The notes beneath the pieces are model-generated. The model ran no database searches, had not been told where the DNA came from, and saw only the letters and a program-made list of their open reading frames with translations. The position numbers and the translations under genes were made by a program. DNA of 64,000 nt from Companilactobacillus kedongensis (GTDB lineage: Bacteria; Bacillota; Bacilli; Lactobacillales; Lactobacillaceae): assembly GCF_003946625.1 (NCBI RefSeq), contig NZ_RHOR01000001.1, positions 62,001 to 126,000 on the forward strand. Direction: 5' to 3'. Of this stretch, positions 617 through 60,158 are shown one piece after another (position 1 is the stretch's first letter; every line of letters begins with the position of its first letter).

Positions 617-786
617 GCCGGAGATTTTGAGTAATGGGCCAGTTGCGCAAGTGGAGTAGAACGGCGATTTTCCGTTCGTACACCACCGACGATTATGAGA
701 TTTGCGTAAGCAAAGCTCATAATCGAGTCTTCAGACCTTGGCTGAAGACGGTCGCGTAACAGGTCCCATTGCTCAAAATCGGAGGC
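617..786 (+). repeat. Four-way-junction palindromic element, copy E1
   Basis: P1 pairs 623-638 with 765-780. Outside it is a GGA/GGA internal loop (620-622, 781-783) closed by GCC/GGC (617-619, 784-786). P2 is 651-664 with 672-686, loop CGATTTT. P3 is 690-705 with 710-725 and holds an A.G mismatch. P4 is 727-734 with 742-749, loop ACCTTGG. The element ends 7 bases from the stop of the minus-strand gene at 794. Structure and recurrence are seen directly; the function is unknown. Confidence 0.85.
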
Positions 787-793
787 GGAAACC

Positions 794-3331
794 CTAGACA
801 GACTCAACAGCTTTCCATGTCCATGTGCTGGTGTAATTACCAGGAACAGTAGAATTATTGTTTTTAAAATCCAGTTTAATATTATCTTTGATAATATCGG
901 TCATATTAGTTGTGGTTAGCCATACTTCACTACTAGCTCTAGGTGTCTTACCAACAAACAATTCAGTATCTTGCATTGGTTGATCATTCCAATAGAATCT
1001 ATGATCAAGACTGTGAGTTTGTTCATCATCGTGAGTAAAATCGTTAACCGATAATGTAACTTTTAGCGGACATTGATTGTTTGATCGAAAGTCATGAACT
1101 TGCAAAGAGCCACTGATATCAGGCTTGATCTTTTTGGTGCTTTTATCTTCAGAGGTTTGTTCGACCCCAAAATCGATCGAGTGTGGTGCTACTAATTGAA
1201 AGGTTCCATCCTTGTGCTGAAAGTAGAGAGTATCGCTGTCACTGTTGCCGTCATAATCAGTAATTGTCAGAACAATTTTGTGAAGCTTTACATCGTTAAA
1301 TTTACTGATTGAAAGTTCAGGCAATTCCCAGAAATAGGTTGATCCAGGATGCTTATTTTCGATATCCTCGAACAATATTTCTTCTTCATTATCGTCGATT
1401 TTATAAGTGGCATTTTTAATTCTTTTACTATCTTTATCAGACCAAGTTCCAGTCAGAGATAAATTGTGGGTAGTTGGTTCGAAAGGATTTAACTCGGACG
1501 ATTCCGGACTAAGGATCTCAATTGACGGGACGATTGTTGGTGGTGGATTGATTTTAATAACCGTCTGTGCAATTTCTGACAGATTGCCATCACTATCTTT
1601 TACCCAAAGTCGAAGGTAATGTGGTCCTTCCTCTAAATCCTTTATTGAAATAGCATCGGACCATTCTTGAGGTTTACCTGCTTTAGAATTCTTTTCGGAT
1701 TGTTTTAGTTTCTTAATGAGTTTACCTTGATGAGTGTCATCGGTATCGACGGTATAGTATAACTCGGCATCGGTACTGTCAAAATCATACCATGTTCCAG
1801 TTACACGATAATTTTGAGCACCATCTTGAATAATATCAGGTGATGTTTCAGTACCTTTTTGATCCAGTTCAATAGCAGGAGCAAATCTTGCTCCAATAAT
1901 ATCTATTTGTGAGGCGTAGTGCATGGAAACCGATTTATCTACTTCTAATGTTTGAACTTTAGTATGCATCGCAAAACCTGAATCCCAAGGGCGTTCACTT
2001 TCTTTAACATTACCCAATCTTGCTCCGGCGTTAAGATTCAAACCGGCATCCCCAAGATCGTTCATATCGGCAAAACTATTTTTTAATCCTTTAGGAACAT
2101 CTGGGGATTCATAATTTCCATGTGATGTGTAACCTTCACCATTGGCCCAAGGGAAACGTCCACCACCACCTATGCCTAGCAAAAATCCATTTATATAACC
2201 TTTTTGCTGATCATGGGCTTTACTGATTGAACGTCCAGCCCAGCTTGATGGTCCATTCGGTAAGTTGGTGAATAGGTTGTATCTGGAAACAGTTATATTA
2301 GATTGTAGGTAAATCCCACGATTATTTCCTAGTGCTCTGATCGGAACAAAGTCACCAGCTTTTTTTCCTTTTTCATCGCGGATCTCAGCAAAGTCTTTAG
2401 TTAGTGAAAAGTCTTTGAAGGCAAATCCCATGAACCGTTGAATTGGATATTTTCCAGTATTTGTATAGTTTATTTTTGTCAAAACACGGCCATTTTTTTC
2501 AAAACTCTGTACGATTTTTACTTCGACTTCGTAGAAATTACGACCACGTTTTACTTGTTGAAAGAAGACCATTCTTTGTTCTTCAAAGCCAGTTTTAGGA
2601 TCTATCCGGTAAGAAAAAGTAGGTGCTTCAGCCATACTGTACTTTTTTTCTAAAACACCAGGTCCGGCTACGGAAGGACGATTAGATCTATCTGAAGGTA
2701 CTTCTAATTCATAAATATCAGTTGTGACAAAGTCACCTTTGGATCCCAAAGATCCATCTAAAGAATGGACATCACCATAGGCATTACCATAAATGTGGTT
2801 ACCGCCGTCAATTGGCCCGTTATCAATATCTCCACCTCGAGGTACAGTGATCACTAGTGAATTTGGAGCCGTCAAGCTGTCGAAACGGCCATGAGCATAA
2901 CCATTATGTACATCTTTAGCAAAGGCGGCCTTAATTTTCATACCGGCAGAGGCATAAGTGTAGTCACCAAAGTATAAGAATGGTACCGCTAAAGTGCCAT
3001 CAGCATGTCTTAAAGTAGGTCCTTTACTCACTCGTAAACTGTCACTTCTAGTCCAAGTAAGTTCTTCAGTATCTGGTTCATCTGTATCAGAATCCTCATC
3101 TGCTGTATCATCGTTATCGTCCTCAATAAGTGGTTCGTCATTTTCTTCTTTTGGCTCGACTAATGATTCGGCAATTTTATTTTCTTGATCTATTACTTCT
3201 TCTAAGTTTGATTCAGTAGGTTCACTATTGTTTTCAGTGGTAGTTGCGTGACCAATATATCCGTTAAAGAGTAAAAAAAATATTCCCACAATTGCAGCTA
3301 GGAATAAGCTTATGATAATGCTCTTTTTCAT
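794..3331 (-). CDS. WxL-like cell-surface protein with Ig-like repeats
   Basis: 845 residues. An N-terminal signal/anchor segment (about 5-25) is followed by an acidic linker rich in E, D and T (about 34-90) and a large globular region (about 95-490). Two Ig-like domains follow, each beginning with a GTW[YS]D motif (about 515-600 and 610-705). The C-terminal 130 residues look like a WxL wall-binding domain: they contain SGSLQVHDFR and end with a Tyr-Thr-Ser-Thr-Trp-Thr-Trp strand. There is no LPxTG motif, so attachment would be non-covalent, as known for WxL proteins. A clear GAGGAGG (3343-3349) sets the start. It stands alone, without the usual neighbouring DUF916 or small WxL genes. The ligand is unknown. 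Confidence 0.7.
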   Translation of the reverse strand: MKKSIIISLFLAAIVGIFFLLFNGYIGHATTTENNSEPTESNLEEVIDQENKIAESLVEPKEENDEPLIEDDNDDTADEDSDTDEPDTEELTWTRSDSLRVSKGPTLRHADGTLAVPFLYFGDYTYASAGMKIKAAFAKDVHNGYAHGRFDSLTAPNSLVITVPRGGDIDNGPIDGGNHIYGNAYGDVHSLDGSLGSKGDFVTTDIYELEVPSDRSNRPSVAGPGVLEKKYSMAEAPTFSYRIDPKTGFEEQRMVFFQQVKRGRNFYEVEVKIVQSFEKNGRVLTKINYTNTGKYPIQRFMGFAFKDFSLTKDFAEIRDEKGKKAGDFVPIRALGNNRGIYLQSNITVSRYNLFTNLPNGPSSWAGRSISKAHDQQKGYINGFLLGIGGGGRFPWANGEGYTSHGNYESPDVPKGLKNSFADMNDLGDAGLNLNAGARLGNVKESERPWDSGFAMHTKVQTLEVDKSVSMHYASQIDIIGARFAPAIELDQKGTETSPDIIQDGAQNYRVTGTWYDFDSTDAELYYTVDTDDTHQGKLIKKLKQSEKNSKAGKPQEWSDAISIKDLEEGPHYLRLWVKDSDGNLSEIAQTVIKINPPPTIVPSIEILSPESSELNPFEPTTHNLSLTGTWSDKDSKRIKNATYKIDDNEEEILFEDIENKHPGSTYFWELPELSISKFNDVKLHKIVLTITDYDGNSDSDTLYFQHKDGTFQLVAPHSIDFGVEQTSEDKSTKKIKPDISGSLQVHDFRSNNQCPLKVTLSVNDFTHDDEQTHSLDHRFYWNDQPMQDTELFVGKTPRASSEVWLTTTNMTDIIKDNIKLDFKNNNSTVPGNYTSTWTWKAVESV

Positions 3332-3571
3332 CTAAAAAAAATCCTCCTCAAATTTAACCTCATGATATAGTATCATGATTATTTGATTAAACAGATTCGA
3401 TATTTGATAGCTTGCCTTACCATTTTTGGCGATTAAAATATAAATTAGTGAATAGTTTTTATTACGATAAAAGCCCATGTTATAAGGGTCAAACGAGGTT
3501 GACAATCTATCTGGTAAGTCTATCATTATAAATAATATTTTTTCTATGATAAATAAGGGGGAGTGGAAACT

Positions 3572-4093
3572 GTGTTTAATGTGTTCGTTAGAAAGGCCTT
3601 AAATGATGATTTACCTAAAATTATTAAGGTGATAAATGATGCAAAAAATTTGATCAAAGGTACCGGTAGTCCACAATGGCAAGACGGGGAACCAAGTAAG
3701 TCAGTTTTGGAAGAAGATTTAAGAGTAGGCCGTGGATATGTCTTGATCGTAAATGGTGAGGTCGCTGGTTATACAGCTTTGATGCAAACGGATGATCCAC
3801 ATTATGATGTTATTCAAGATGGCAGTTGGGTAAATACAACTGATAAGTATGCGACACTACATCGAGTATCAATTGCTGACGGTTATCGTGGTAAGCATTT
3901 AAGTGACTTTATGATTTCTAATTTGTTTACCATCGCTTATGAAAAAGGATTCAGAAATTTCCGGATCGATACACATGCTATGAATAAAGGGATGCAGCAT
4001 ATTTCTTTGAAGTTTGGTTTTGAATATCGTGGAATTATTTATGTTGGTGATAAAGAAGACGATCGTCGATTGGCATATGAACTTAATATGTAG
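3572..4093 (+). CDS. GNAT family N-acetyltransferase
   Basis: About 173 residues. The GTG at 3572 is preferred because AAGGGGG at 3555-3561 is well spaced from it; an in-frame GTG at 3563 touches that site. The fold shows in VRKALNDDLPKIIKVINDAK at the start, a central strand ATLHRVSIADGYRGKHLSDF (motif A with R/G-x-x-G/K for CoA) and a late KFGFEYRGII segment. The arrangement resembles small-substrate acetyltransferases of the RimI-like superfamily; the substrate is unknown. It is a single-gene unit whose stop is followed within 7 bases by palindromic element E2. Confidence 0.75.
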   Translation: MFNVFVRKALNDDLPKIIKVINDAKNLIKGTGSPQWQDGEPSKSVLEEDLRVGRGYVLIVNGEVAGYTALMQTDDPHYDVIQDGSWVNTTDKYATLHRVSIADGYRGKHLSDFMISNLFTIAYEKGFRNFRIDTHAMNKGMQHISLKFGFEYRGIIYVGDKEDDRRLAYELNM

Positions 4094-4099
4094 GTTTTC

Positions 4100-4267
4100 A
4101 CTACGATTATGAGTAATTCCTCCTGTTATGCGACCGACAGGGGCCAAGGTCTCCTGTCTCGATTTTGAGCTTTGCTTTCGCAAATCTCAGAATCGTCGGT
4201 GGTGTACGAACGGAAAATCGCCGTTCTACGCCACTTGCACAACTGGTTCCATTACTCATAATCTCCG
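4100..4267 (-). repeat. Four-way-junction palindromic element, copy E2 (inverted)
   Basis: The closest relative of E1, in reverse orientation. P1 pairs 4105-4117 with 4251-4263 exactly. P4 is 4136-4141 with 4153-4158. P3 is 4161-4175 with 4180-4194. P2 is 4199-4213 with 4221-4234 and on the minus strand has the same CGATTTT loop as E1. It starts a few bases after the stop of the GNAT gene. Confidence 0.85.
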
Positions 4268-4371
4268 TTTTGTATAACGGTATTATTAATATAATTTATT
4301 TCCTCAAAGGTATTACTAATGGTATTGGAATAGGATTTCAATATATTTAAACTAATTGTCAAAACTAATTA

Positions 4372-4551
4372 GTCGGAAGAGATGAGAAATATTTGTGGCA
4401 GTGAAAGTGGTGTTAGGACGGGTGAACTTCCCGTTCTTACAGCACCGTGCGAGTTTTGAGACTTGCTGGTTTTGCAAGGCTTAAAACCGAGAAGCAAGAC
4501 TTCGGCTTGCGCCGTCCCGCACAGCTACGAATATTTCTCATCTCTGGAGAC
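4372..4551 (+). repeat. Four-way-junction palindromic element, copy E3
   Basis: P1 pairs 4378-4396 with 4527-4545, capped by a GGA/GGA internal loop (4375-4377, 4546-4548) and a GTC/GAC clamp (4372-4374, 4549-4551). P2 is 4407-4422 with 4430-4445, loop TGAACTT. P3 is 4453-4466 with 4474-4487. P4 is 4494-4498 with 4506-4510, loop ACTTCGG. It lies between two convergent genes, 104 bases from E2. Confidence 0.85.
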
Positions 4552-4562
4552 AGTAAAATAGC

Positions 4563-4604
4563 AAAAGCACGATAAATCAGATCAATGATTTATCGTGCTT
4601 TTTT
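4563..4604. terminator. Bidirectional terminator after the sensor kinase gene
   Basis: A long stem (4563-4579 with 4586-4602, six-base loop) with an A-run on the left and a T-run on the right, able to stop transcription both ways. It overlaps the stop codon of the kinase gene. Confidence 0.85.
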
Positions 4605-5925
4605 AATGACTATGTTTTATAGGAAGTTCAATAACGAACTCGCTTCCTTGTGGTAGGTTATCACGAACGAAAATTTTACCGTGATGTTCATTCATAATTT
4701 GTTGAGCAATAGCTAGGCCTAATCCATGTCCACCGCTGTTGCGGTTTCTTGACTTATCCACACGATAGAAACGACCAAATATTTTCTTTTTGTCGGTATC
4801 CTTTATTCCAACTCCGGTGTCAGAAATTATTATTTGATATTTTGATCCTTCCAGGTTGTCATAAATTCTGATCGTACCATTTTCTGGCGTGTATTTCGTT
4901 GCATTATCCAATAAAATGATCAGAACTTGTTTTATTTTATCCCGATCAACTAGTAACGTTGCATGGTGTTTAATATTTTCTTGGAAGACCTTTGATTGAG
5001 AATTGATGATGTCTTTGAATGGCATGATCGGGTCTTTGATGAAATAGTCAGGTGTTGTTAATTCAAAATTGAATTTAGTTGTCGATTGGTCGGCTCGAGC
5101 TAGGATCAATAAATTATTAGTCAGTGAATTTAGGCGATTTACTTCATCTAAAGATACTGAAATAGATTCTGCTTCATCCATAACTGTGCTTTTTGGACGT
5201 GTCAGCATATACTCGAGTTTTCCTTGTATGATCGTCAGTGGTGTACGTAATTCGTGAGCGGCATCATTAACAAATTCACTTTGTTGTTTCCATGACTTGA
5301 TGATTGGAAACATGGTTATGCGGGTCAATACGTATGACAAAATCAAGGCAATGATCCAGAAAATAAAGAAGGTCATGATCAATATTTTTTGGAAGTTTTC
5401 CATAGATTGGATCTGCGTATCTATATTTTGCATGATCAAAACGTAATTCCCAGCATACATAGGATTATTGTTCTTTTTTGAAACTTTGATCAATAAGGCT
5501 CTAAAACTCATTTTTTTAACGGTCAGAGTTTGTTTAGTATTGAGATTTTTCCTATTTAATTTGACCTTTTTTAGAACTGAATATCGATTACCAAGGCTGG
5601 ATTTATTTAGCAGAGTTCCTTTAGCATTGAATACTAAAACAGAAGTTTGAAAGGGTGCTCTAGGTTCAGGTTGTTTGACGGCTTTATTATCGTCTGGTCC
5701 GTGAGGTCCGCCATTGTCTACTGGATGCATGTCGGGCTGTTTTCGTATCGTACTGACTTGGCTTTTAATATCCTGATCAATACTGCGATAGGTGGAAGTT
5801 TGAAATCGATTGAAGATGATTATTCCTAATGTCAAAAATAGAATGGCAAATGTGGCCATTATCGAAAGAAATAGCCTTAATTGCTGCCGCCGAGTGATTT
5901 TATTTTGTTTAGTTTTATTATTCAT
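4603..5925 (-). CDS. Membrane sensor histidine kinase
   Basis: About 440 residues from the ATG at 5925, which overlaps the end of the response regulator by 8 bases as in coupled genes. A second in-frame ATG at 5946 lacks a better ribosome site. A first membrane segment (about 20-42), an extracellular region of about 130 residues and a second membrane segment (about 185-207) precede the HisKA box (FVNDAAHELRTPLTIIQGKL, with the phosphorylated His). The ATPase domain has an N box (LLDNATKYT), G1 (DTGVGI), F (FGRFYR) and G2 (GGHGLGL). It would phosphorylate the regulator encoded just upstream. The signal is unknown; the divergent glycosyltransferase genes suggest a cell-envelope role. Confidence 0.9.
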   Translation of the reverse strand: MNNKTKQNKITRRQQLRLFLSIMATFAILFLTLGIIIFNRFQTSTYRSIDQDIKSQVSTIRKQPDMHPVDNGGPHGPDDNKAVKQPEPRAPFQTSVLVFNAKGTLLNKSSLGNRYSVLKKVKLNRKNLNTKQTLTVKKMSFRALLIKVSKKNNNPMYAGNYVLIMQNIDTQIQSMENFQKILIMTFFIFWIIALILSYVLTRITMFPIIKSWKQQSEFVNDAAHELRTPLTIIQGKLEYMLTRPKSTVMDEAESISVSLDEVNRLNSLTNNLLILARADQSTTKFNFELTTPDYFIKDPIMPFKDIINSQSKVFQENIKHHATLLVDRDKIKQVLIILLDNATKYTPENGTIRIYDNLEGSKYQIIISDTGVGIKDTDKKKIFGRFYRVDKSRNRNSGGHGLGLAIAQQIMNEHHGKIFVRDNLPQGSEFVIELPIKHSH

Positions 5926-6601
5926 CCTGGCAAATGTACCCAACATTTCTAATAGTTTTTATGAAATAATCATTTTTAGAAGGGCGTAACTTCTTACGTA
6001 AATTACTCATATAAACTTCCACGACGGTAATAGAAGTATCAGAATCAAAGCCCCAGATACGTTCAAATATCTGATCTTTTGTTAGAATAATGTTTTTATT
6101 TTGCAAAAGATAGACTAATAAATCGTATTCTTTTCCGTTCAAAGAAACTGAATCATTGTCGATCGATACTTCGTGATTATTTAAATTTACTTCTATATTA
6201 TGCAGTTTCAAAATTGATTCATCGGCTGAGATTCCACTGCGCTTTAAAAGTGCTTTGACACGTGCCTGTAATTCTTCACGATGGAAAGGTTTTGTTAAGT
6301 AATCGTCAGCACCTAAATTAAATCCGTGAACTTTATCGTCCAATTCAGCTTTTGCAGTCAAAATCAATACAGGTGTATTGATCTGATCCTCACGGATACT
6401 TTTTAAAATATCATAGCCATTTATTCCTGGTAACATCAAATCTAATATTATCAAATCATGAACATCTTCAGTTGCTGCAAACTTTCCACTAAGCCCATCG
6501 TTTTCAATATCAACTTGAGCAAAATCAGAAAGAAATGTAGCAACATTATTAGCTAAATTCTCGTCATCTTCAACGACGAGAATTTTTATATTATTTTGCA
6601 T
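5918..6601 (-). CDS. OmpR-family response regulator
   Basis: 227 residues. The receiver domain has the acidic pair in VVEDDENL, the phospho-acceptor Asp in LIILDLMLPG (about residue 52), the Thr/Ala switch and the Lys in DYLTKPF (about 102). The C-terminal winged helix (about 130-225) ends with the usual TIRNVGYIC. An AAAGGAG ribosome site supports the start. It is the first gene of a two-gene unit with the kinase. The intergenic region to the divergent glycosyltransferase cassette holds a direct repeat typical of OmpR-type sites, so it probably controls both directions. Confidence 0.93.
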   Translation of the reverse strand: MQNNIKILVVEDDENLANNVATFLSDFAQVDIENDGLSGKFAATEDVHDLIILDLMLPGINGYDILKSIREDQINTPVLILTAKAELDDKVHGFNLGADDYLTKPFHREELQARVKALLKRSGISADESILKLHNIEVNLNNHEVSIDNDSVSLNGKEYDLLVYLLQNKNIILTKDQIFERIWGFDSDTSITVVEVYMSNLRKKLRPSKNDYFIKTIRNVGYICQDE

Positions 6602-6646
6602 AATTAACTCCTTTGATCAATGTTCTCATTATAAATCAATTAATCC

Positions 6647-6665
6647 AATTTAAGCTTAATTTAAG
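6647..6665. promoter_or_regulatory. Likely response-regulator binding site between divergent units
   Basis: AATTTAAG occurs twice (6647-6654 and 6658-6665), 11 bp apart, the one-turn spacing of OmpR/PhoP-type direct repeats. On the + strand a GATAAT (6674-6679) follows. On the minus strand a TATAAT (6628-6633) serves the regulator gene. Binding is inferred. Confidence 0.5.
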
Positions 6666-6712
6666 TTAGTTTGGATAATCTAGATTCGTCGTAAAGAAAG
6701 GATGTTAAACAA

Positions 6713-6802
6713 ATGAAAGATAAGTTGATGAAGTCAAGAACCATAATATTTTCACTCCTTATTTATTCAATCATTTGTTTCTTAATTAATATTACTTTTT
6801 AG
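6713..6802 (+). CDS. 29-residue single-pass membrane peptide
   Basis: ATG at 6713 after AAAGAAAGGA, stop TAG at 6800. The peptide has a basic N-terminus (MKDKLMKSR) and a hydrophobic run to the end. It is the first open frame after the divergent promoter region and lies 17 bases ahead of the YkcB-like gene, so it would be the first product of that operon. I do not recognise it. It could be a small membrane partner or a translational leader. The ribosome site and spacing support translation. Confidence 0.5.
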   Translation: MKDKLMKSRTIIFSLLIYSIICFLINITF

Positions 6803-6819
6803 GAATTGGAGATTGATAA

Positions 6820-9090: not shown

Positions 9091-9105
9091 AAAGGAATGG
9101 TAAAC

Positions 9106-10071: not shown

Positions 10072-10084
10072 GGAGATAGAGACC

Positions 10085-10373: not shown

Positions 10374-10378
10374 ATATT

Positions 10379-18275: not shown

Positions 18276-18415
18276 TTTTGTTATTTTGATCAATCAAAAA
18301 GGGAGATATAATCCATCAATTATGTCTTCCTTTAATATTATCTATTTAAATTATTTCTTTACTGATAGTCATGAATATTTCCAATATTATATTAGTTCAA
18401 ACTGTAACAGAACTA

Positions 18416-18591
18416 GTCGGAGGAACTGAAAAAATATGCACAGGCAGTGACAGTGGTGTTAGGACGAGTGATTTTCTCGTTCTTACAGCACGGACGTGTT
18501 TGAAGACTTGCTTGCAAGGCTTCAAACCGAGAACCGAGACAACGACTCGGTTCGTTCCCACGGCCAGTGCATATTTTTCAGTTCTGGAGAC
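18416..18591 (+). repeat. Four-way-junction palindromic element, copy E4
   Basis: P1 pairs 18422-18441 with 18567-18585 (one bulge), then a GGA/GGA loop (18419-18421, 18586-18588) and a GTC/GAC clamp (18416-18418, 18589-18591), as in E3. P2 is 18453-18468 with 18476-18491, loop TGATTTT. P3 is 18498-18511 with 18514-18527. P4 is 18531-18538 with 18546-18553, loop ACAACGA. P1 and P4 differ in sequence from E3 but keep pairing. Confidence 0.87.
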
Positions 18592-18616
18592 GGCAGAAAT
18601 AAATTGATTATTAATC

Positions 18617-29934: not shown

Positions 29935-30936
29935 ATGAAAGCAGCTCAATTATTAAAGTATGACAAGAATTTTAAATTGGAAGTAGGAGATATACCGACT
30001 CCCAAGCCAAACGATGATGAGGTATTGGTTAAGGTTAAGGTTGCCTCAGTCAATCCATTAGAGATGTTGATTGGTACTGGTAGCGTCAAGTTGATCCAGG
30101 ATTACGATAAGCCAACAACCATGGGGAATGAGTTATCAGGTATAGTTGAATCTGTTGGTAAGAATGTATCTGGTTTTAAAGTGGGGGATGCAATTTATTC
30201 TCGTTTACCATTAAATAAAATTGGTGCATTTGCGGAACATGTTGCAGTCGACTATCGTGCAATTGCTCTTAAACCTAAAAATTTAGACTTCGTTGAAAGT
30301 GCTGCTGTTCCATTAACAGGATTAACCGCTTATCAAGGATTGACTGAAGAGTTACAAGTACAATCTGGAAAAAGTATCATGATCCCCGGTGGCTCTGGTT
30401 CATTTGGACAAATGGCAATTCCTTTGGCAAAACAAATGGGATTAGATGTTTTTGTCAGTGGAAATGCTCGTTTTAAAGAATCTTCAATCGCAATTGGTGT
30501 CGATAAATATTTCGACTATCGTAAAGAAAACTATTGGGAACATTTAAAGTCAGTCGATTATGTAATTGACACAATTGGTAAAAATGAATACGATCATGAA
30601 TTACAAATTATCAAACCAGGTGGGAAGATCTTATCATTGAGAATGGGGCCTAATCGCCGCTTTGCTAAAGATCATGATTTATCATTTTTGAAGACAATGT
30701 TATTTTCAATTGCTGGTAAGGGTATTGATAAGAAAGCAAAACAAGCCGGTGCAGAATATCACTTTATTTTTGTTAGAAGTAGTGGAGAACAATTGAAAAA
30801 GATAACTAAAATCGTCGAGGATAATGATATCAGACCTGCAGTTGATCCAACTGAATTTAAGTTAGACGATATTAATGAAGCACTTGATTTAGTTGCGAAT
30901 GGTCACAGTAAAGGTAAAGTTGTAATTAAGTTTTAA
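29935..30936 (+). CDS. MDR-family oxidoreductase (quinone reductase-like)
   Basis: 333 residues after GAGGAGAA. The GroES-like part contains VASVNPLEMLIG and TMGNELSGIVESVG. The NAD(P) part has GKSIMIPGGSGSFGQMAIPL and GVDKYFDYR. Zinc-binding Cys and His clusters are absent, so it is probably an NADPH-dependent quinone or enone reductase. Divergent from the TetR gene with shared operators. Confidence 0.87.
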   Translation: MKAAQLLKYDKNFKLEVGDIPTPKPNDDEVLVKVKVASVNPLEMLIGTGSVKLIQDYDKPTTMGNELSGIVESVGKNVSGFKVGDAIYSRLPLNKIGAFAEHVAVDYRAIALKPKNLDFVESAAVPLTGLTAYQGLTEELQVQSGKSIMIPGGSGSFGQMAIPLAKQMGLDVFVSGNARFKESSIAIGVDKYFDYRKENYWEHLKSVDYVIDTIGKNEYDHELQIIKPGGKILSLRMGPNRRFAKDHDLSFLKTMLFSIAGKGIDKKAKQAGAEYHFIFVRSSGEQLKKITKIVEDNDIRPAVDPTEFKLDDINEALDLVANGHSKGKVVIKF

Positions 30937-30992: not shown

Positions 30993-31015
30993 TGTTGTGT
31001 TGGTATTGGAATGCC

Positions 31016-31198
31016 GCATCCGGTCGTGAGAAATATAGTCTGCAATGGGACCGGTCTGAGCCGAAGTGCGGTCTCAGACCTTGATTTTGAGCTTCGCAGA
31101 GTACGCGAATCTCAAAAGTCATCCGTGGTGTAAGAACGAGAAAGGCACTCGTCCTAACGCCACCTTCATTGCTGACTATATTTCTCATGACCGGATGC
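31016..31198 (-). repeat. Four-way-junction palindromic element, copy E5 (inverted)
   Basis: The longest P1 of the family: 32 bp (31016-31047 with 31167-31198) with only two mismatches. P4 is 31053-31060 with 31073-31080. P3 is 31083-31097 with 31105-31120. P2 is 31125-31140 with 31148-31163; on the minus strand its loop is TGCCTTT. It follows the terminator of the preceding gene. Confidence 0.87.
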
Positions 31199-31255
31199 TA
31201 GTTTGTTAATTATATTTTCATCAGTTATTTTTGACCACTTGGCTATCTATATTTA

Positions 31256-50190: not shown

Positions 50191-50211
50191 AATAAGTATG
50201 TAGGGTGCAAT

Positions 50212-50526: not shown

Positions 50527-50651
50527 TTGAATCACTCCTTGATGTTTGATTAACCATATATTAACACTATTATATATTATTCTACTAGCCAAGGACATTT
50601 AATTGACCGATTTAAAAATAAAAAGTATCTTAATTACAAGAGGTGAATGAT

Positions 50652-50978: not shown

Positions 50979-50996
50979 TAATTGAGTGAGGAAATA

Positions 50997-51629
50997 ATGT
51001 TATTAAGCTTTTATAACCCTGATGTCCTAGGTGACATTTTGATCGTGGAACTAGCAGATGACGCTGGAATTACACAATCAAGCGCAAATAAGAATGACGT
51101 AGTGAGAATTTTTAATGATGAAACTAATGAAGCCATTGGTTTCAATTTTTTTGGTCTAGGTGAGAAGCTTAATTTGACTGAAAAAGGTCAGGTATTTTTA
51201 AATTCTGATCAAGTAGCAATTTTAAATGATGCTATCGCAAAGGCAGGTTTCAGTGATGAATTGGTTGCTGACGAAAGCCCTAAATTTGTGATCGGTCACG
51301 TTGAAGAAATGAAAGAACATCCTGATTCTGATCATTTACACATCACCCAAACCGATGTAGGACTCGAGAAGCCCGTACAAATCGTTTGTGGCGCTCCAAA
51401 CATCGATCAAGGTCAATTAGTAGTAGTTGCCTTGCCAGGGGCTGTAATGCCAACTGGGACAGAAATTTGGCCAGGTCAATTGCGTGGAGTCGATAGTTAT
51501 GGAATGATTTGTTCAGCTAAAGAACTAGGTATTCCTAATGCTCCACAAAAAAGAGGTATTTTAGTATTAGATTCAGGTAATGCTGGAGAAGCATTCGATT
51601 TTGATAAAGCAGCAAAAATGTTCGATTAG
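50997..51629 (+). CDS. ytpR: YtpR-like tRNA-binding-domain protein
   Basis: About 210 residues; ATG at 50997 with GAGG five bases ahead (a TTG at 50982 also lies in frame). The N-terminal half is a DUF4479-type domain ([16 protein letters not shown]). The C-terminal half is an EMAP/PheT-type tRNA-binding fold: [20 protein letters not shown], then [20 protein letters not shown], then [13 protein letters not shown]. Role unsettled in the family. Co-transcribed with the thioredoxin-like gene and followed by murC after 10 bases. Confidence 0.9.
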
Positions 51630-51639
51630 GAGTTATTTT

Positions 51640-52971: not shown

Positions 52972-52977
52972 AATTAA

Positions 52978-53016
52978 AAGAAGGGCGTATCGAATAATTT
53001 TCGATACTCCCTTCTT
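52978..53016 (+). terminator. murC terminator
   Basis: A 16-bp stem with one mismatch (52978-52993 with 53001-53016). Confidence 0.85.
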
Positions 53017-53026
53017 GTATGCCAGA

Positions 53027-53067
53027 TAAAAATAAGCTAAATCCCATAAAGGAATTTAGCTTATTTT
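53027..53067 (-). terminator. Terminator of the giant surface-protein gene
   Basis: A stem of about 16 bp (53027-53043 with 53049-53066), A-run on the left acting as T-run on the minus strand. Confidence 0.88.
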
Positions 53068-53074
53068 TTAATCA

Positions 53075-56000
53075 TTAGTTATTAACGTCAACATCTACAG
53101 CTTTAACAAATTCATTTGTTGAAACACGATAATATTGTTCGCCATTGATAGTTGTAATACTGTCTGTCTTCCAGCTGCTGTTAGCACTAAGTGATCTATT
53201 TGTAACGAGATCACCTTTAGCTGTATAAAGACTAGCAGTTGTTTTGGCGTGAGTCGTAACGACCATGTTTACTGGTGTGTAAACATAAACGTCGCTCTCG
53301 TCGACAAATTCGTTAGTTGAAACACGGAAGTGTTTTGTACCATTGATTACATATGTTTGGTGATCTGCGATCCAGCTACTATTCGGAGCAAGTGATCTAG
53401 TTTTGATCAAATCACTTTCAGCCTTATATAGTTCTTTAGCAGAATCACTGTAAGCTCTGACATATACATTTGGTGCAGTATATGGATAAGCTTGACTCAT
53501 CAAAGCCCATTCGTTAGTTGAAACACGATAGTAGCCAACACCGTCAATTGTGATGACAGCGTCACTTTGCCAATCAGTTGCAGTAGCTAATGAACGAGTC
53601 GTTGACTTCGTCATCTTACCATCAGCACCTAGTTGATAAAGTGCGACAGCAGGCTTGTCAGCATATGTTGAAATAGTTTGATTCTTATATTCAATATCGC
53701 CATTTTCAGGTGTATCAGTATTGCCTGAACTTGTTGGGATTGGTGTGTATGTTAACTTGTCAGTGTCAGTAACAGTCTTGTTAGGATCGTTTGCGTAAGT
53801 GATAGTTGGAACACCACCAATTGTGTAAGTAACGATAACTGAAGGTGAAGTGTATCCATTTACAGGATCAGCTGTATAAGTTTGCTCTTTGTCACCATAG
53901 TTACCTGCAGGGACATTGATAACTTGTGTACTACCATCCGGCTTTGTAAATGTGATAGTAGTTGCTTTGTTTGGAGTACCTATGTATTTAGCATTACTTA
54001 TAGGTTCTTTAGTATTGGTATTTGAGAATGTAAATGTGTTGTTAGGACCATATGTAACGGTGATTTTTGGTGTAGTATAACCATCTTCGTTAGGAAGATT
54101 TACTTCTTGAGTGTCACCAACTTTACCACCAGTGATGTGGATAGGTTGATCGATTGATTGTTGTCCGACTGTAGATGGGATTGTAATGTCTGTAGGGCCG
54201 ATCGTGTCACCGGTATAAACAAGATCCTTATCAGGAACGAACTTACCAGAAGGATCGATAGTACCATAAACAGTATCTAAATTAGTTGTATAACCAGTTT
54301 CAGTCTTTGGAGCAAAGGATATATGATCACCAACTTTGGCACCAGCAGGTAAAGGAGTTGAAACAGTATCACCATTGGCTAAAGTAACATCATAAGATTT
54401 ATCGGTTGCGTCATTACCAGTATAAACAAGATCCTTATCAGGAACGAACTTACCAGAAGGATCGATAGTACCATAAACAGTATCTAAATTAGTTGTATAA
54501 CCAGTTTCAGTCTTTGGGGCAAAGGATAGATGGTCACCAACTTTGGCACCAGCAGGTAAAGGAGTTGAAACAGTATCACCATTGGCTAAAGTAACATCAT
54601 AGGATTTATCGGTTGCGTCATTACCAGTATAAACAAGATCCTTATCAGGAACGAACTTACCAGAAGTATCAATAGTACCAGTAATATTATCTATATTAGG
54701 TTTATAGCCAGTTTCGGTCTTTGGGGCAAAGGATAGATGGTCACCAACTTTAGCACCAGCAGGCAAAGGAGTTGAAACAGTATCACCATTGGCTAAAGTA
54801 ACATCATAGGATTTATCGGTTGCGTCATTACCAACTAAAGCAACTGTAGTACCAGCATCAACAGTAACTGGTGTATCCGGATTATTTGTAAATGTTACGC
54901 CAACTGTTGTTCCATCAGCAATATGGTATCCGGCGGGTAATTGACTAGCAATTTCACTCTTAATTGGATCAGTTGTTATATCAATATTTCCAGTATCACC
55001 AACATGATATCCGTCAGCAGGAACGGTAAATGTGATTGAAGAACCGTCACTTGTTGTAGCTGTTACTTTACCACTAGTTGCAGGAAGTGCTTCATATGTT
55101 ACATCTGCACCATCTGATGCTGTGGCTGTTGCCATTGTTTGCCCAAATGTAAAACTAGCAGAGGTAGCAGTTGATGTTCTTGTGTAAGTATTGCCATTTG
55201 CAAATTTATATGTACCAGGTATATCAATAGTACCTGGATCGCCAACAGTACCTTTAATATCTTGTACAATATCACCGTGGTTAGTTTTGATAGTAACGTG
55301 GTTAGTTACGTCTGAACCGGCTGCTAGGGCACTCCCTTTTGAATCGAATGTAAGTACGTTATTATTTGAATCCCATGCTATTCCATTAAATAAAGCTCCA
55401 AGACCATTAGAAACTCCAGATGCAGGATTAGTTTGGGGAACACCATAAAATGATTTAGTAGTATTAGAATTATCACTTTGCCAAATTGGTCCATTACTTG
55501 AAGTTAACATCGTTTTAGGGTTGAAATATAGACTTGAACTTAAAGAAATGGAATCGAGATTAGTTCCATCAAACATACCTTCACCTAATGAAGAATCTCC
55601 TGTTTTGGGCCATTCAGAAGAAGGTCTGTTGTTTGTCCATTTCCAACCGTATAAATTTATTGTATTTAATGAAGCGTCATTTTTAAACATAGCTCTGAGA
55701 TCTGTAGCATTATTTGCAATCCAATTGTTAGTGGCCGAGGTCGGTTTTCCTCCTACGTCTGGTCCAGCTATTTCTGATAAATTCTCACAATTTGCAAATG
55801 CATAACTTCCATCGATTATTTTCGTAAATGCACCCAATGGAAATGAAATTTTTGTAAGTTTATGATCATTCTCAAACATATGACTAAGGTTTGTAACCAT
55901 AGTGAAAAGGTTCTGTGAAAGATCCAAATTTAGTAAGCTAGTATCATTTGCGAACATTCCTTCAGTACTATCAACATTACTAGTGTCCATTTTACTTATA

Positions 56001-56770
56001 TCGACACTATTTAATAAAGGCATGCTAGCAAACATATGTGATGAATCTTTAGGCGCAGTTATTGCATTTTTAACAACAACTGCAGTAATTGTGCTAGCAT
56101 TTCCACCCCAGTCAGGATAGTCTTTTGTGGTTTCATCTAGTTGACCATTGATAGTTAAAGTAGTTCCATCCGTAGTCCAGCCAGTACCGCTCATTGTTTT
56201 AGTTGCCGTAGCAACGGGAGCGCCTTCAACAGAAAATGCTTGTGCAGTAGGTTGTTCTGATTGTGCTGTTTCACCAGTTGAACCATCGCCTGTACCGTCA
56301 GATGCTGGTTGTGGATCTGTTGAACCAGCACCATTACTTGGTGCGGGAGTATTGTCTCCAGTTGTAGAACCTGAACCAGTTCCAGTTGAACCTGACTCTG
56401 ATCCACCATTAGCGGCTGGTTGTTGTGCTTGTGTTCCAGTTGCACCAGCACCTGTACTACCATCTTTGGTTCCATCACCAGTATCACCAGTTGATGATGT
56501 CCCTGAACCATCTGTAGCACCTGCGGCAGATCCTGAACCTGCAGCGTCAGTTAATCCGTCCGTCGGTGTTGGCGATTCGGCGGCGGCTTGTGATAATGCT
56601 GTTTGGATTGTATCAGTAGTTGCGGCTTTGGCTACATATGTTGGTGTACCCAACAAAAATAGACCTCCTGCTAATGAAAGGCTGCTGACAACGACCCAAT
56701 TTTTCTTTGATTTAACTAATTTTTTCTTCATGACTGAATTTGAGTCACGTTTTAATTGTTGAAATCTCAT
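53075..56770 (-). CDS. Giant surface protein: BspA-like repeats, tandem repeats, S-layer-type C-terminus
   Basis: 1231 residues; AGAGGG precedes the ATG at 56770. A long basic signal (KLVKSKKNWVVVSSLSLAGG) recalls the KxYKxGKxW type, with cleavage likely after YVAKA. Next come a Gly/Ser/Thr/Pro linker (about 45-185), BspA/DUF285 leucine-rich units (about 240-400: SHMFASMPLLNSVDIS, NLSHMFENDHKLTKI), three nearly identical 69-residue repeats (about 650-855) and further beta-repeat domains. Three C-terminal modules each contain YRVSTNE or FRVSTNE (SLAP/DUF5776-like, about 1045-1231). There is no LPxTG motif; the C-terminal modules would bind wall polymers. Probably an adhesin or S-layer-associated protein. 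Confidence 0.85.
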   Translation of the reverse strand: MRFQQLKRDSNSVMKKKLVKSKKNWVVVSSLSLAGGLFLLGTPTYVAKAATTDTIQTALSQAAAESPTPTDGLTDAAGSGSAAGATDGSGTSSTGDTGDGTKDGSTGAGATGTQAQQPAANGGSESGSTGTGSGSTTGDNTPAPSNGAGSTDPQPASDGTGDGSTGETAQSEQPTAQAFSVEGAPVATATKTMSGTGWTTDGTTLTINGQLDETTKDYPDWGGNASTITAVVVKNAITAPKDSSHMFASMPLLNSVDISKMDTSNVDSTEGMFANDTSLLNLDLSQNLFTMVTNLSHMFENDHKLTKISFPLGAFTKIIDGSYAFANCENLSEIAGPDVGGKPTSATNNWIANNATDLRAMFKNDASLNTINLYGWKWTNNRPSSEWPKTGDSSLGEGMFDGTNLDSISLSSSLYFNPKTMLTSSNGPIWQSDNSNTTKSFYGVPQTNPASGVSNGLGALFNGIAWDSNNNVLTFDSKGSALAAGSDVTNHVTIKTNHGDIVQDIKGTVGDPGTIDIPGTYKFANGNTYTRTSTATSASFTFGQTMATATASDGADVTYEALPATSGKVTATTSDGSSITFTVPADGYHVGDTGNIDITTDPIKSEIASQLPAGYHIADGTTVGVTFTNNPDTPVTVDAGTTVALVGNDATDKSYDVTLANGDTVSTPLPAGAKVGDHLSFAPKTETGYKPNIDNITGTIDTSGKFVPDKDLVYTGNDATDKSYDVTLANGDTVSTPLPAGAKVGDHLSFAPKTETGYTTNLDTVYGTIDPSGKFVPDKDLVYTGNDATDKSYDVTLANGDTVSTPLPAGAKVGDHISFAPKTETGYTTNLDTVYGTIDPSGKFVPDKDLVYTGDTIGPTDITIPSTVGQQSIDQPIHITGGKVGDTQEVNLPNEDGYTTPKITVTYGPNNTFTFSNTNTKEPISNAKYIGTPNKATTITFTKPDGSTQVINVPAGNYGDKEQTYTADPVNGYTSPSVIVTYTIGGVPTITYANDPNKTVTDTDKLTYTPIPTSSGNTDTPENGDIEYKNQTISTYADKPAVALYQLGADGKMTKSTTRSLATATDWQSDAVITIDGVGYYRVSTNEWALMSQAYPYTAPNVYVRAYSDSAKELYKAESDLIKTRSLAPNSSWIADHQTYVINGTKHFRVSTNEFVDESDVYVYTPVNMVVTTHAKTTASLYTAKGDLVTNRSLSANSSWKTDSITTINGEQYYRVSTNEFVKAVDVDVNN
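54205..54835 (-). repeat. Tandem coding repeats of 207 bp, three copies
   Basis: The sequence around ACAAGATCCTTATCAGG recurs with a 207-bp period (near 54213, 54426 and 54633) and is almost identical at DNA level, coding the motif TGNDATDKSYDVTLANGD. Near-identity suggests recent expansion or gene conversion. Confidence 0.9.
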
Positions 56771-57075
56771 ATTTATTTCCCTCTATCCTTGATAATGACA
56801 ATTTATGAATAGTCTTTATGACATACCTAAATTATAATATTCATTTATTGCTATATAATTCAGTTATTGTAAGAGATGTTTTCCTAAAATGAGTATTTTT
56901 ATGAAAATAGCATGTTTTATATTTAATTTTTTTTATAAAATGAGAACTATTATATATGATAGTGGAATCAGGATTTAGCCGCAGCTAAGACGGCTCTAAA
57001 TAATAGGAAGAAACTTTTAAAATTGTCGCTGGTTTGATATTTAATAACAATATTTTTATTAAATGAATCCAAATT
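56771..57075 (-). other. AT-rich upstream region of the giant surface-protein gene
   Basis: About 300 bases without a gene. It is very AT-rich and contains promoter-like hexamers and one small hairpin (AGCCG and CGGCT around 56978-56996). It presumably holds the promoter and a long leader of the surface-protein gene; I see no specific site I can support. Confidence 0.4.
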
Positions 57076-57126
57076 AAAAAGGAGTGTCTTAAACCTGAAA
57101 ATAGGTTTAGGATACTCCTAATTTTT
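57076..57126 (-). terminator. Terminator of the GltS-like permease gene
   Basis: AGGAGTGTCTTAAACCT pairs with AGGTTTAGGATACTCCT (two mismatches), with an A-run at the left acting as T-run on the minus strand. Confidence 0.85.
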
Positions 57127-58313
57127 TAAATCAATTTCAAGAAAACAGAAGCAATAATAACGGAAGCCATTGAAACCGTCGCAAATCCACCGACTAGCAT
57201 TTTTGGCAACATGTTTTGAGTGAGATATTCTTCTTCCTCCTCGTTATCAGCAATCGTACGGCATACTTCAGTTGTTAGAATAAAGTCAGCTGGAAAGCCG
57301 AATAGGGCAGTCAATGAAAAGGCAAAGGCCATCTGTTTGCTCATACCGAATGGTTTTGCTAAAACGTAAGAAGCGATGAACATTCCTAAGATTCCTAAAG
57401 CAATCAAAACTAGGATTTGTACAAGGATTCCACCGATAATATCAGGTGTTGTCAGGCTTAATTGTGAAAAGACATAAGCCATTAAACCGTAGATCAACCA
57501 GTTGAAGACTCCAGCACGTGTTAAAGCGTTATCTTCAAGCAATCCAACTTGATGTGCAATAACACCTAAGATCAAACAGATAACGTTGGCGTTAATGACG
57601 CCGTGCATTAATCCGGCTAACCAGTTACCTAATAAGGCAATCAGGGCTACACGCACGATAATGAAAACTGGTGACTGAAATTGTTCTGGCAAGTGTAAGA
57701 TATGTTTTTGTGTGTCTAATGAATCTGCCATACCAGTTATTTTAGGAGCGTTGGGATCGATATGTCCTTTGCCGCTCTTCAATTCTTCCTTTAATCTGCG
57801 TCCTTCTTTTCTCAAGAGGATGGCAGTCATTGGGTAACCAATGAAAGAATGCAAAATAAACATTGAAACTGGTAAAGCCACAAGTGTTGTAGCACCGGCG
57901 GCTTTTAATCCGTCAGTCATCAAAAGTGTTGCGACCATACCACCAGTTAGTGGAGGAATGGCAGCGACAACTGTGTGCCAATCGAAGATCAATGTACCGA
58001 CTGTTAATGTAAGGACTAGAGTCCCCAATACTCCTAATAGTGCGATACAAACAGCTTTCCATTGATTAACAAGTTCCTTTAAACTCATCAAGGTACCAAG
58101 ATGTACCAATAATAGTGAAACGCCCATGCCAGTGAAGGCAGTGTTAAATGATGCTTTGGCAACAATATCCTTAGGGATGATCGTCCAAAATCCGATAGCG
58201 AAAAGAACCGCCGTGATAAAAATAGATGGTATAAATGCTTTGGTAGCTGCGGAAACCCAGTCACCTATCAGCATGAATACCATTACAATAGTGAATGCAA
58301 TTAAGTATTCCAT
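57126..58313 (-). CDS. GltS-like membrane transporter
   Basis: 395 residues, about ten membrane helices. Two inverted halves are suggested by LTGGMVATLLMTDGLKAAGA and by SLTALFGFPADFILTTEV; such Gly-rich hairpins are known from glutamate:sodium symporters and related 2-hydroxycarboxylate carriers. A cytoplasmic loop (about 165-215) separates the halves. Divergently transcribed from an amidohydrolase, so the transporter probably imports the substrate or exports the product of that enzyme. GGGGGA precedes the start. Confidence 0.7.
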   Translation of the reverse strand: MEYLIAFTIVMVFMLIGDWVSAATKAFIPSIFITAVLFAIGFWTIIPKDIVAKASFNTAFTGMGVSLLLVHLGTLMSLKELVNQWKAVCIALLGVLGTLVLTLTVGTLIFDWHTVVAAIPPLTGGMVATLLMTDGLKAAGATTLVALPVSMFILHSFIGYPMTAILLRKEGRRLKEELKSGKGHIDPNAPKITGMADSLDTQKHILHLPEQFQSPVFIIVRVALIALLGNWLAGLMHGVINANVICLILGVIAHQVGLLEDNALTRAGVFNWLIYGLMAYVFSQLSLTTPDIIGGILVQILVLIALGILGMFIASYVLAKPFGMSKQMAFAFSLTALFGFPADFILTTEVCRTIADNEEEEEYLTQNMLPKMLVGGFATVSMASVIIASVFLKLI

Positions 58314-58418
58314 AAAAATAGATCCCCCTTGAATATTAAATAAAGATTAGGTTTAAAGTTAGACTTTTCTAATCTTTATGTCAATGGAGAATTGTATTTA
58401 ATTAAGGGTTTTTAACAT

Positions 58419-58430
58419 GTAATCGATTAC
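58419..58430. promoter_or_regulatory. Palindromic site between the divergent transporter and amidohydrolase genes
   Basis: GTAATCGATTAC is a perfect 12-bp palindrome. A related CATGTAAT occurs on its left edge and again at 58450-58457. A regulator common to both genes is plausible but not identified. Confidence 0.35.
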
Positions 58431-58476
58431 TTTTACTAATGTAAATATCATGTAATATAGATATTTTAATTTAGCG

Positions 58477-58505
58477 TTGACTTTAATTAGAAAGACTCTT
58501 AGAAT
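58477..58505 (+). promoter_or_regulatory. Amidohydrolase promoter
   Basis: TTGACT (58477-58482), 17 bases, TAGAAT (58500-58505), about 40 bases before the start codon. Confidence 0.6.
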
Positions 58506-58543
58506 TTTAACTACATTTTAAATATTGATAGGGAGAGAGTTTA

Positions 58544-59743
58544 ATGACAACATTCACTAATTTAAATTTATTTAACGGAAACGATAATAAGATAGTTGAA
58601 AATAGTTACTTAACTGTAGATGAAAAGGGGAAGATCACTGCAGTAGGTACAGGTAAGCCAGATTCTAGTGATGAGGTTGTCGATCTTCACGGTAAATATG
58701 TTATGCCAGGACTAATCAACGCACATACTCATTTGATGATGGTTCCTGATGACAGTGATAAGCTCGAATACTTATCAGAAACTGAAGTCACATTCTTAGC
58801 TTTAAAACATTTGGATACCTTATTACATGCTGGTGTTACTTATATCAGAGATTGTGGCTGTGCTTTCAATACTGATATCAAGTTAGCTAATTTACAAGCC
58901 GAAGGCAGTTTAAAAGGAACAGAAATTTTACCCTCTGGTCGTCCAATGACTATGACAGGTGGACATGGTGATTTTAAAGAAGGACTAGACGGTGAAACTA
59001 CTATGGGTCATTTGATAGACTCACCAGATGCCATGAGAAAAGCCGTTCGTCAAAACTTCAAACTTGGTGCCAAAAATATTAAAGTTATGGCAACTGGTGG
59101 TGTTATGTCTTCAACCGATCAAGTTGACGATACTGAATTGACTGAAGGAGAAATGGCAGTTGCTGTTCAAGAAGCGCACACAAAACACATGACTGTTGCA
59201 TCTCACGCCCAGGGTAATCGTGGTATTCAATTGTCACTTGATGCCGGTGTTGATTCGATCGAACATGGTATCTATGTTGACGAAAAGCAAGCTGATTTTA
59301 TGAAGGAACACAATATTTATTTAGTACCAACACTAAATGCCTGTGCCGGAATTGATAAGTATGGTGTTGGTAAGATCCCTGATTACATGATTAAGAAGAA
59401 TGATATTGTTAAATACGATTTCTTCAAGAACATTGGTATGGCACTTAAAAAAGGTGTTAAAGTTGTTGTCGGAACAGATGCCGGAACACCATTTAACAGC
59501 TTTGAAACAGGTACAACTGATGAATTAGCTTTATTAACAAGTGTTGGCGCAACTCCTTATCAAGCACTGCTTGGTACAACTAAGTACGCTGCTGAACTAT
59601 TGAGGATCACTGATGAATACGGAAGTCTTGAAACTGGTAAGTTTGCTGACTTCTTAGTATTGGATAATAATCCATTAGAGAGTGTAGAAGCGGTTGCTCA
59701 GACTGACAAAACTATCTATAAGAAGGGTGAACTTGTTAAATAG
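58544..59743 (+). CDS. Metal-dependent amidohydrolase (imidazolonepropionase/prolidase-like)
   Basis: 399 residues after GGGAGAGAG. The amidohydrolase metal site is complete: H-x-H in INAHTHLMM, a Lys in KNIKVMATGGV as possible bridging residue, His in ASHAQGNRG and IEHGIYVD, and Asp in VVGTDAGTP. The C-terminal composite beta domain ends FADFLVLDNNPLE. Relatives hydrolyse Xaa-Pro-like or N-acyl amino acids and related amides. The divergent GltS-like carrier suggests an amino-acid-derived substrate. Confidence 0.85.
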   Translation: MTTFTNLNLFNGNDNKIVENSYLTVDEKGKITAVGTGKPDSSDEVVDLHGKYVMPGLINAHTHLMMVPDDSDKLEYLSETEVTFLALKHLDTLLHAGVTYIRDCGCAFNTDIKLANLQAEGSLKGTEILPSGRPMTMTGGHGDFKEGLDGETTMGHLIDSPDAMRKAVRQNFKLGAKNIKVMATGGVMSSTDQVDDTELTEGEMAVAVQEAHTKHMTVASHAQGNRGIQLSLDAGVDSIEHGIYVDEKQADFMKEHNIYLVPTLNACAGIDKYGVGKIPDYMIKKNDIVKYDFFKNIGMALKKGVKVVVGTDAGTPFNSFETGTTDELALLTSVGATPYQALLGTTKYAAELLRITDEYGSLETGKFADFLVLDNNPLESVEAVAQTDKTIYKKGELVK

Positions 59744-59760
59744 GTAGTTGTTGTTGTTTG

Positions 59761-59898
59761 CCAGAAAGATCAAGTAACTCCGCCTGTTGTGGGACCGACT
59801 TCGGCCAAGGTCCGAAGTCTCGCTTTTGAACTTTGCACAGACCGCAAATTTCAAAAGTCGTCCTGTTCACAACTGGCTCCGTTACTTGATCTTTCTGG
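59761..59898 (-). repeat. Palindromic element, copy E6 (inverted, lacks hairpin P2)
   Basis: P1 is a perfect 18-bp pair, CCAGAAAGATCAAGTAAC (59761-59778) with 59881-59898. P4 is 59797-59804 with 59812-59819, loop ACCTTGG on the minus strand. P3 is 59823-59836 with 59844-59857. Where P2 should be there is only a short single-stranded stretch. Starts 18 bases after the amidohydrolase stop. Confidence 0.85.
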
Positions 59899-59928
59899 CT
59901 TGGTTGTTCAGTTATGATATTTATAGTT

Positions 59929-59964
59929 AAAGCATGATCTCGTTTTTGTGGGATTATGCTTTTT
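59929..59964 (+). terminator. Amidohydrolase terminator
   Basis: AAAGCATGATC pairs with GATTATGCTTT (one mismatch), then T-run. Duplicated at 61568-61602. Confidence 0.75.
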
Positions 59965-59987
59965 GTATTTATATTAGATTATATTGA

Positions 59988-60158
59988 GACGGAGGACGAG
60001 AGGTGAGTGGTCAGCAGTCAAAATGTTGTAGAACGGTGGTCTTCCGTTCGTACAACATGGGCGATTTCGAGATTTGCGATAAGCAAAGCTCAAAATCGAG
60101 TCCTCAGACCAAGGCTGAGGACGTCCCGACAGCAGACCATCCACCTCTCGACCGTAGT
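59988..60158 (+). repeat. Four-way-junction palindromic element, copy E7
   Basis: P1 59997-60012 with 60135-60150 (14 of 16 pairs). P2 60025-60036 with 60044-60056, loop TGGTCTT. P3 60062-60077 with 60083-60098 with the A.G mismatch. P4 60100-60107 with 60115-60122, loop ACCAAGG. Lies upstream of the MFS gene. Confidence 0.85.

Follow-up and report, generated by a model that had tools for sequence, protein, structure and literature searches.

What are the cross-shaped palindromes that lie dispersed between unrelated genes of Companilactobacillus kedongensis? The window considered here comprises 64,000 nucleotides of this genome (assembly GCF_003946625.1, contig NZ_RHOR01000001.1, forward strand, positions 62,001 to 126,000), and an original prediction made from its letters had described seven such elements, E1 to E7, built on one plan of a closing helix P1 followed by the hairpins P2, P3 and P4. 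We refer to each of them as an arm. Our analysis indicates that the arms belong to a real, abundant and apparently undescribed family. This is probably a family of non-coding mobile DNA elements, whose usual unit most likely comprises a pair of unlike arms with a spacer between them, and not the single arm that had been taken as the element.

All seven elements were found where they had been placed, both by reading the sequence and by covariance-model search, the latter giving the arm coordinates and bit scores below. Alignment of the seven copies recovered the common plan, with E6 lacking P2, and the quoted sequences of the P2 (YGNNYTT) and P4 loops were confirmed. The two deletion derivatives mentioned in the prediction are most likely 61477-61542 (-) and 61623-61679 (+), the latter weak when taken alone. 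The arms and adjoining features are as follows, the hairpins beside E1 and E3 and the E2/E3 spacer having been read from the sequence.

535..577, - strand: terminator-like hairpin on the inner side of E1, with an A-run at left (U-run on the - strand).
612..791, + strand: E1, four-helix arm whose outer end adjoins the stop of gene 794-3331 (-); 191.9 bits.
4094..4274, - strand: E2, four-helix arm, left of a pair, directly 3' of the stop of gene 3563-4093 (+); 188.2 bits.
4275..4366, no strand: E2/E3 spacer, without a clear terminator hairpin.
4367..4556, + strand: E3, four-helix arm, right of the pair; 135.2 bits.
4563..4605, no strand: terminator-like hairpin on the outer side of E3, adjoining the stop of gene 4603-5946 (-).
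18411..18596, + strand: E4, four-helix solo arm without a gene end on its outer side; 135.5 bits.
31011..31203, - strand: E5, four-helix solo arm, 3' of the terminator of gene 29935-30936 (+); 149.5 bits.
59755..59904, - strand: E6, three-helix arm (no P2), left of unit copy 1, 3' of amidohydrolase gene 58544-59743; 122.3 bits.
59905..59982, no strand: spacer of unit copy 1; it includes a terminator-like hairpin (about 59929-59965) and shares 93.9% identity with the copy 2 spacer over 82 bases.
59983..60164, + strand: E7, four-helix arm, right of unit copy 1; 163.4 bits.
61477..61542, - strand: left arm of unit copy 2, collapsed, overlapping the end of MFS gene 60309-61499; 34.8 bits and alignment to E6.
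61543..61622, no strand: spacer of unit copy 2; it includes a terminator-like hairpin (about 61567-61602).
61623..61679, + strand: right arm of unit copy 2, collapsed; 10.9 bits, E 0.16, and 98% identity to the E7 end over 42 bases.

Three of the seven arms were folded singly, and in each case none of 200 shuffles was as stable as the native sequence (z of -10.69 for E1, -7.35 for E2 and -7.77 for E3).

The evidence for a two-armed unit comes from the fixed pairing of arms, from related spacers that often carry terminators and from the recurrence of E6-spacer-E7, none of which figured in the prediction. It draws mainly on two genomes, that of C. kedongensis containing the window (G000) and that of an arm-rich relative of 2.79 Mb (G011). 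For the flank, wobble and pair tests in G000 we took 137 aligned matches, the best of 150, out of 570 kb mostly picked for containing arms; the remaining matches were for the most part these same arms seen on the opposite strand. The tests in G011 used 103 arms, with re-fetched, edge-cut and weak arms left out. Close neighbour arms are ordered - then +, with their inner ends facing, in 50 of 51 cases in G000 and in 30 of 32 in G011. In G000, 35 of 133 inner flanks match DNA elsewhere, and the 94 places matched (relations being counted from both ends) comprise the inner side of another arm in 56 cases, the inside of an arm in 31, an outer side in 2 and other DNA in 5. Among control queries taken downstream of genes, 7 of 140 (drawn from 350) found a match, with 1 of 22 places on an inner side, and outer flanks matched in 14 of 139 cases, with 4 of 38 places on an inner side.

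The unit E6-spacer-E7 itself is repeated at 61482-61675 (copy 2) and, outside the window, at C1:39260-39485 (copy 3), whose spacer is 83.1% identical to that of copy 1 over 71 bases. The arms of copies 2 and 3 have collapsed in different ways. In copy 2 the homology spans the unit from its left to its right outer end, and in copy 3 it likewise ends at the right outer end; beyond these ends the sequence is unrelated. The genes adjoining copies 1 and 2 are also unrelated (an amidohydrolase and an MFS transporter). Related spacers and this recurrence make it likely that the mobile unit is arm-spacer-arm, non-coding and about 400-550 bp long. The final codons and stop of the MFS gene (61482-61499) lie inside the collapsed left arm of copy 2, so that the insertion seems to have provided the end of the gene.

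Partners in a pair tend to be of unlike type, A-A pairs occurring once where 7.9 would be expected (0 of 5000 permutations). This would follow from a two-armed design, and also from the loss of long inverted repeats. We also considered that pair arms could be local inverted duplications, and rejected it because G000 partners are less alike than random pairings (identity 0.578 vs 0.598, lower than in any of 500 permutations); mutual or near best matches are limited to three pairs. The G011 data agree only in part, since partner identity there is not below chance (315 of 1000 permutations at or below), while partners above 0.7 identity are scarce (1 vs 4.7 expected, 27 of 1000 permutations).

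Where do the arms lie with respect to genes, called here as simple longest open reading frames (ORFs)? On the outer side of G000 arms there is a gene 3' end in 83 of 107 cases, mostly within 20 nt of the stop, and a gene start in the other 24; the corresponding counts for 45 G011 arms are 26 gene ends, 18 gene starts and 1 undecided. In G011, arms are present in 8 of 28 gaps between convergent genes, in 14 of 112 between tandem genes and in 4 of 24 between divergent genes. Of 135 inner ends, 63 have a terminator-like hairpin no further than 130 nt away, compared with 8 of 136 outer ends; among the controls this holds for 16 of 300 random positions and for 46 of 200 arm-free positions downstream of genes. 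E3, with its hairpin on the outer side, is an exception to the inner-side rule.

The fold is conserved by covariation. Among 29 aligned G000 copies, 40 of 55 pairs have changed on both sides, and in 36 copies from Companilactobacillus and other genera compensatory changes on both sides are present at 50 of 54 pairs. What does not vary is the ends of the arm (AYTAGCC inner, GGCGGCA outer), a symmetric GNA/GNA mismatch in P1, recognised by eye, and the P4 loop, which is often AGACCTTGGCT. P1 is hypervariable: arms of other species keep the ends and the core while forming near-perfect stems of unrelated sequence. The conserved ends lie beyond the variable part of P1, and for that reason a target-derived P1, as in the enterococcal EFAR repeats, was ruled out. 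P3 loops could be read by pattern on the + strand in 107 of 137 arms; 61 of the 64 four-base loops start with G and 57 finish with A, and of the 23 three-base loops 19 start with G and all 23 finish with A. Loops of this G...A form suit RNA. They also give very stable mini-hairpins in DNA. No promoter motif stood out by eye at the inner arm end.

Which strand folds was approached through wobble pairs. Over all helices, in the union of structures predicted from both strands, G-U:A-C counts on the + strand are 235:233 in G000, 220:95 in G011, 46:58 in A2 and 47:93 in A4, with 32 of the 93 A-C pairs of A4 coming from a single loop position that is doubtful; counts restricted to pairs that the predictions for the two strands share are 138:114, 59:19, 24:13 and 45:21, respectively. 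In P1 only, the counts are 108:48 in G000 and 83:13 in G011, with single positions accounting for 34 of these G-U pairs in G000 and for 31 in G011. Where an arm adjoins a gene end, this P1 excess is on the strand that does not correspond to the mRNA of that gene; the other helices are mixed. If the arms acted as RNA of a 3' untranslated region (3'-UTR), wobble would be favoured on the mRNA strand, and in P1 it is not; a folded + strand, either single-stranded DNA or antisense RNA, fits better. A tRNA control gave 23 G-U and 0 A-C in 266 pairs of 12 tRNAs, a contrast that flatters RNA because ARAGORN, which marked the pairs, leaves mismatches unmarked.

Comparison with relatives revealed turnover of the sites. 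In G016, the E1, E2/E3 and E4 intervals are all without an arm. In G032, the E4 interval is empty and a second structured repeat occupies E1 and E2/E3; in G003, a single divergent arm stands at E2/E3 and the second repeat in the E4 interval, E1 being empty. When 31 arm sites of relatives were tried, 22 could be placed in the examined parts of G000, which has an arm at 17 of them and none at 5. Among 21 arm pairs compared at shared sites, 12 are only 54-70% identical, with flanks of about 73-94%. The three closest ortholog pairs, picked by identity among these 21 (84, 90 and 92%), show 2 compensated, 10 one-sided and 15 broken changes at paired positions. Taken together, the empty sites, the replaced arms and the mostly uncompensated changes agree better with a mobile element than with a 3'-UTR RNA that is conserved.

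The second structured repeat is about 115 bp long, has its own long closing stem and lies beside stop codons and terminators in G032 (L132:5155-5275 and L132:1686-1812) and G003 (L134:5069-5186). It was also seen at L143, L145, L146, L149 and L150, and had no match in the examined parts of G000.

How widespread is the family? G000 holds at least 150 arm matches at E 6.8e-5 or better, which excludes chance, and re-searching parts of the genome gave more; copy numbers per genome are lower bounds, taken from the best 150 matches in G000 and the best 74 in each genome of the genus. Matches were found in 25 of 36 Companilactobacillus genomes and, considering the best 8 per genome, patchily in 63 of 301 Lactobacillaceae genomes, from 9 of 40 genera. 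The prediction had argued that many such matches in Lactobacillaceae without one in Rfam would speak for a new family, and this is the outcome obtained. With R2, a broader model of the arm family, and the best 6 matches per genome, 54 of 395 Lactobacillales genomes matched, weakly outside Lactobacillaceae; a class sample, also with the best 6, gave 3 of 398 genomes, all Lactobacillales, the share of other orders among the 398 not being shown. In ten evenly spaced 20-kb samples of G011 we counted 45 arms (4 weak), which extrapolates to about 570-630 arms and some 4% of its 2.79 Mb. A family outside Lactobacillaceae (f2) includes a genome, G439, with 32 BLAST matches. Ten weak relatives were inspected singly; the P4 loop AGACCTTGGCT is exact in 5 of them, and in 7 a gene end is found on the outer side at a distance of no more than 150 nt.

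In a family other than Lactobacillaceae, G325 has four shortened relatives of 131 nt and 37.1 bits each (L199 and further places), the one at L199 lying 30 bases 3' of an ORF that resembles a transposase by eye. A relative in G553 (L200) is situated at the end of an infB-like gene, just before an rbfA-like gene, and two further genomes of that genus have one match each.

Does the family correspond to anything already named? With curated cut-offs, tRNA was the sole Rfam match in the whole window, and nothing convincing was obtained for E1 at E up to 10. The family was not described in the literature searched, the sequences of EFAR not being among those compared, so that the failure of the prediction to recognise a named family has been borne out, as has its remark that the elements are more complex than REP, BOX or simple terminators. 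EFAR elements are palindromic, about 170 bp long and inserted at stem-loops, and form an L-shape of two stem-loops with a target-derived outer stem. They resemble the arms in being palindromic and in having hosts among the Lactobacillales; as far as this description goes, without comparison of sequences, the arms differ by their P1 with three hairpins, their conserved ends outside the variable P1 and their pairing with unlike partners. Group IIC introns also insert in a fixed orientation next to terminator hairpins and are catalytic RNAs with a reverse transcriptase gene, unlike the arms, which have neither coding capacity nor an Rfam match. YPAL and ERIC are structured intergenic repeats of 127-168 bp, probably mobile, and YPAL targets span or adjoin dyad symmetries (PMC2229807); these occur in other hosts, the enterobacteria, and the available portion of that paper describes no two-armed unit with a terminator in its spacer. 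REP/BIME are high-copy palindromes of alternating orientation that are thought to be mobile (PMC3733652). Length, ends and transposase all set the arms apart from REP/RAYT systems: REP sequences have 20-40 bp and a GTAG or CGTC tag, whereas the arms have 150-200 bp and other ends, and G000 lacks a Y1 transposase. Numbers of stem-loop clusters for L. johnsonii and E. faecalis are tabulated in PMC2267715.

Among the roles that had been suggested for the elements, that of a miniature inverted-repeat transposable element (MITE) is the best supported. The arms are non-coding, 150-200 nt long and more than 150 in the genome, with spacers of 37-220 nt; paired units end in TGCCGCC...GGCGGCA, the arms being mutually inverted, and no gene product is expected from arm or spacer. 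Two possible sources of a mover were considered. An enzyme of the Y1/IS200/RAYT type is not required, given that PF01797 is absent from G000 and seven other arm-rich genomes and is present in some genomes without arms. As for an autonomous copy between distant arms, the four intervals searched (C22, C35, G011 at 1.79 Mb and the two half-matches of G439 C24; no genome-wide search was made for other ends) enclose ordinary or small unknown ORFs and no recognisable transposase.

In the model that we propose, a unit of about 400-550 bp would consist of a TGCCGCC end, an arm with P1 enclosing P2, P3 and P4, an AT-rich spacer that often includes a terminator hairpin, a further arm, inverted and with a sequence of its own, and the outer end GGCGGCA. 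This unit would be copied into intergenic gaps, mostly just 3' of a stop codon, where the carried terminator would keep the insertion harmless. Recognition by an enzyme would depend on the fold, on the conserved ends and P4 loop and on the GNA/GNA mismatch more than on the sequence of P1, and the form recognised is probably the single + strand. After insertion, arms would decay or collapse, giving rise to solo arms and short derivatives. We tentatively add, as a possibility that we doubt more than we trust, that the moving form of the element is single-stranded, that its multi-helix fold is the main feature recognised and that a new kind of enzyme handles it. In that case, two unlike cruciform arms round a carried terminator could settle harmlessly behind almost any gene and come to fill some 4% of a genome, and stem sequences may change freely as long as pairing is kept.

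Several observations weigh against a mobile arm-spacer-arm unit. Among the 150 listed G000 arms, 49 have no partner within 700 bases, some of them having a collapsed one; 98 of 133 inner flanks have no match elsewhere at E 1e-4; terminators are not in every spacer, as the 63 of 135 inner flanks and the outside terminator of E2/E3 indicate; and copy 3 has another full arm nested at its left, so that only its right end is clean. The 17 of 22 shared sites suggest that many sites are old, though sharing is over-counted because the examined parts of G000 were mostly chosen for holding arms. Three arm pairs at 77-80% identity, with 20 compensated, 4 one-sided and 13 broken changes, speak against our reading if they are true orthologs; they may be replacements. 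Neither a target duplication nor a recent insertion within a species was established, empty and filled sites coming from different species only, with flanks too diverged to define the junction. Plasmids had no match for the three arms searched, nor phages for the one arm searched, and the intervals examined between distant arms yielded no transposase or other mover. A rival explanation is that the single arm is the mobile unit and inserts next to a terminator, its AGCC end pointing to the hairpin; since terminators are almost symmetric, either side could be used, and -/+ pairs would arise. Unpartnered arms, the lone arm of G003 at the E2/E3 site and the preference of terminator-like hairpins for inner over outer ends all agree with this explanation, which we nevertheless find unlikely in view of spacers related at different sites and of three copies of one arm-spacer-arm unit; the unlike partner types also speak against it, while being explicable by a two-armed design or by inverted-repeat loss.

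It is very improbable, in our opinion, that the arms are structured 3'-UTR RNAs which stabilise or terminate mRNAs and are paired where genes converge. The gene 3' ends outside 83 of 107 G000 arms, mostly within 20 nt of the stop, the terminator on the inner side, the strong covariation and the 7 of 10 relatives in other families near a gene end would all fit such a role. However, the outer neighbour is a gene start for 24 of 107 arms in G000 and for 18 of 45 in G011, relatives show empty or re-filled sites, changes in the three closest ortholog pairs are mostly uncompensated and the P1 wobble excess is opposite to the mRNA strand in both genomes; the pure mRNA signal contemplated in the prediction thus becomes less likely. 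A lactobacillar branch of EFAR would be compatible with the mobile unit that we favour, and we judge it quite unlikely. EFAR is listed as an enterococcal MITE (PMC3733652), and relatives of the arms occur outside Lactobacillaceae, in f2, with the 32 matches of G439; against this, the two-stem L-shape is unlike a P1 with three hairpins in a paired unit, as judged without comparing sequences.

If the mobile arm-spacer-arm unit is real, food-fermenting lactobacilli would harbour a very abundant, apparently undescribed repeat family, and its carried transcription stop would explain how hundreds of intergenic insertions are tolerated. The near-perfect stems of unrelated sequence within one family would make recognition of DNA structure directly testable, and strong covariation without an Rfam match need not imply a functional RNA.

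One protein of the window has two relatives among named genomes, from C. keshanensis and C. baiquanensis, with identities of 68 and 69%. Apart from the arms, the window encodes at 53075-56770 a protein of 1231 amino acids with a surface-layer (SlpA) domain and leucine-rich repeats.

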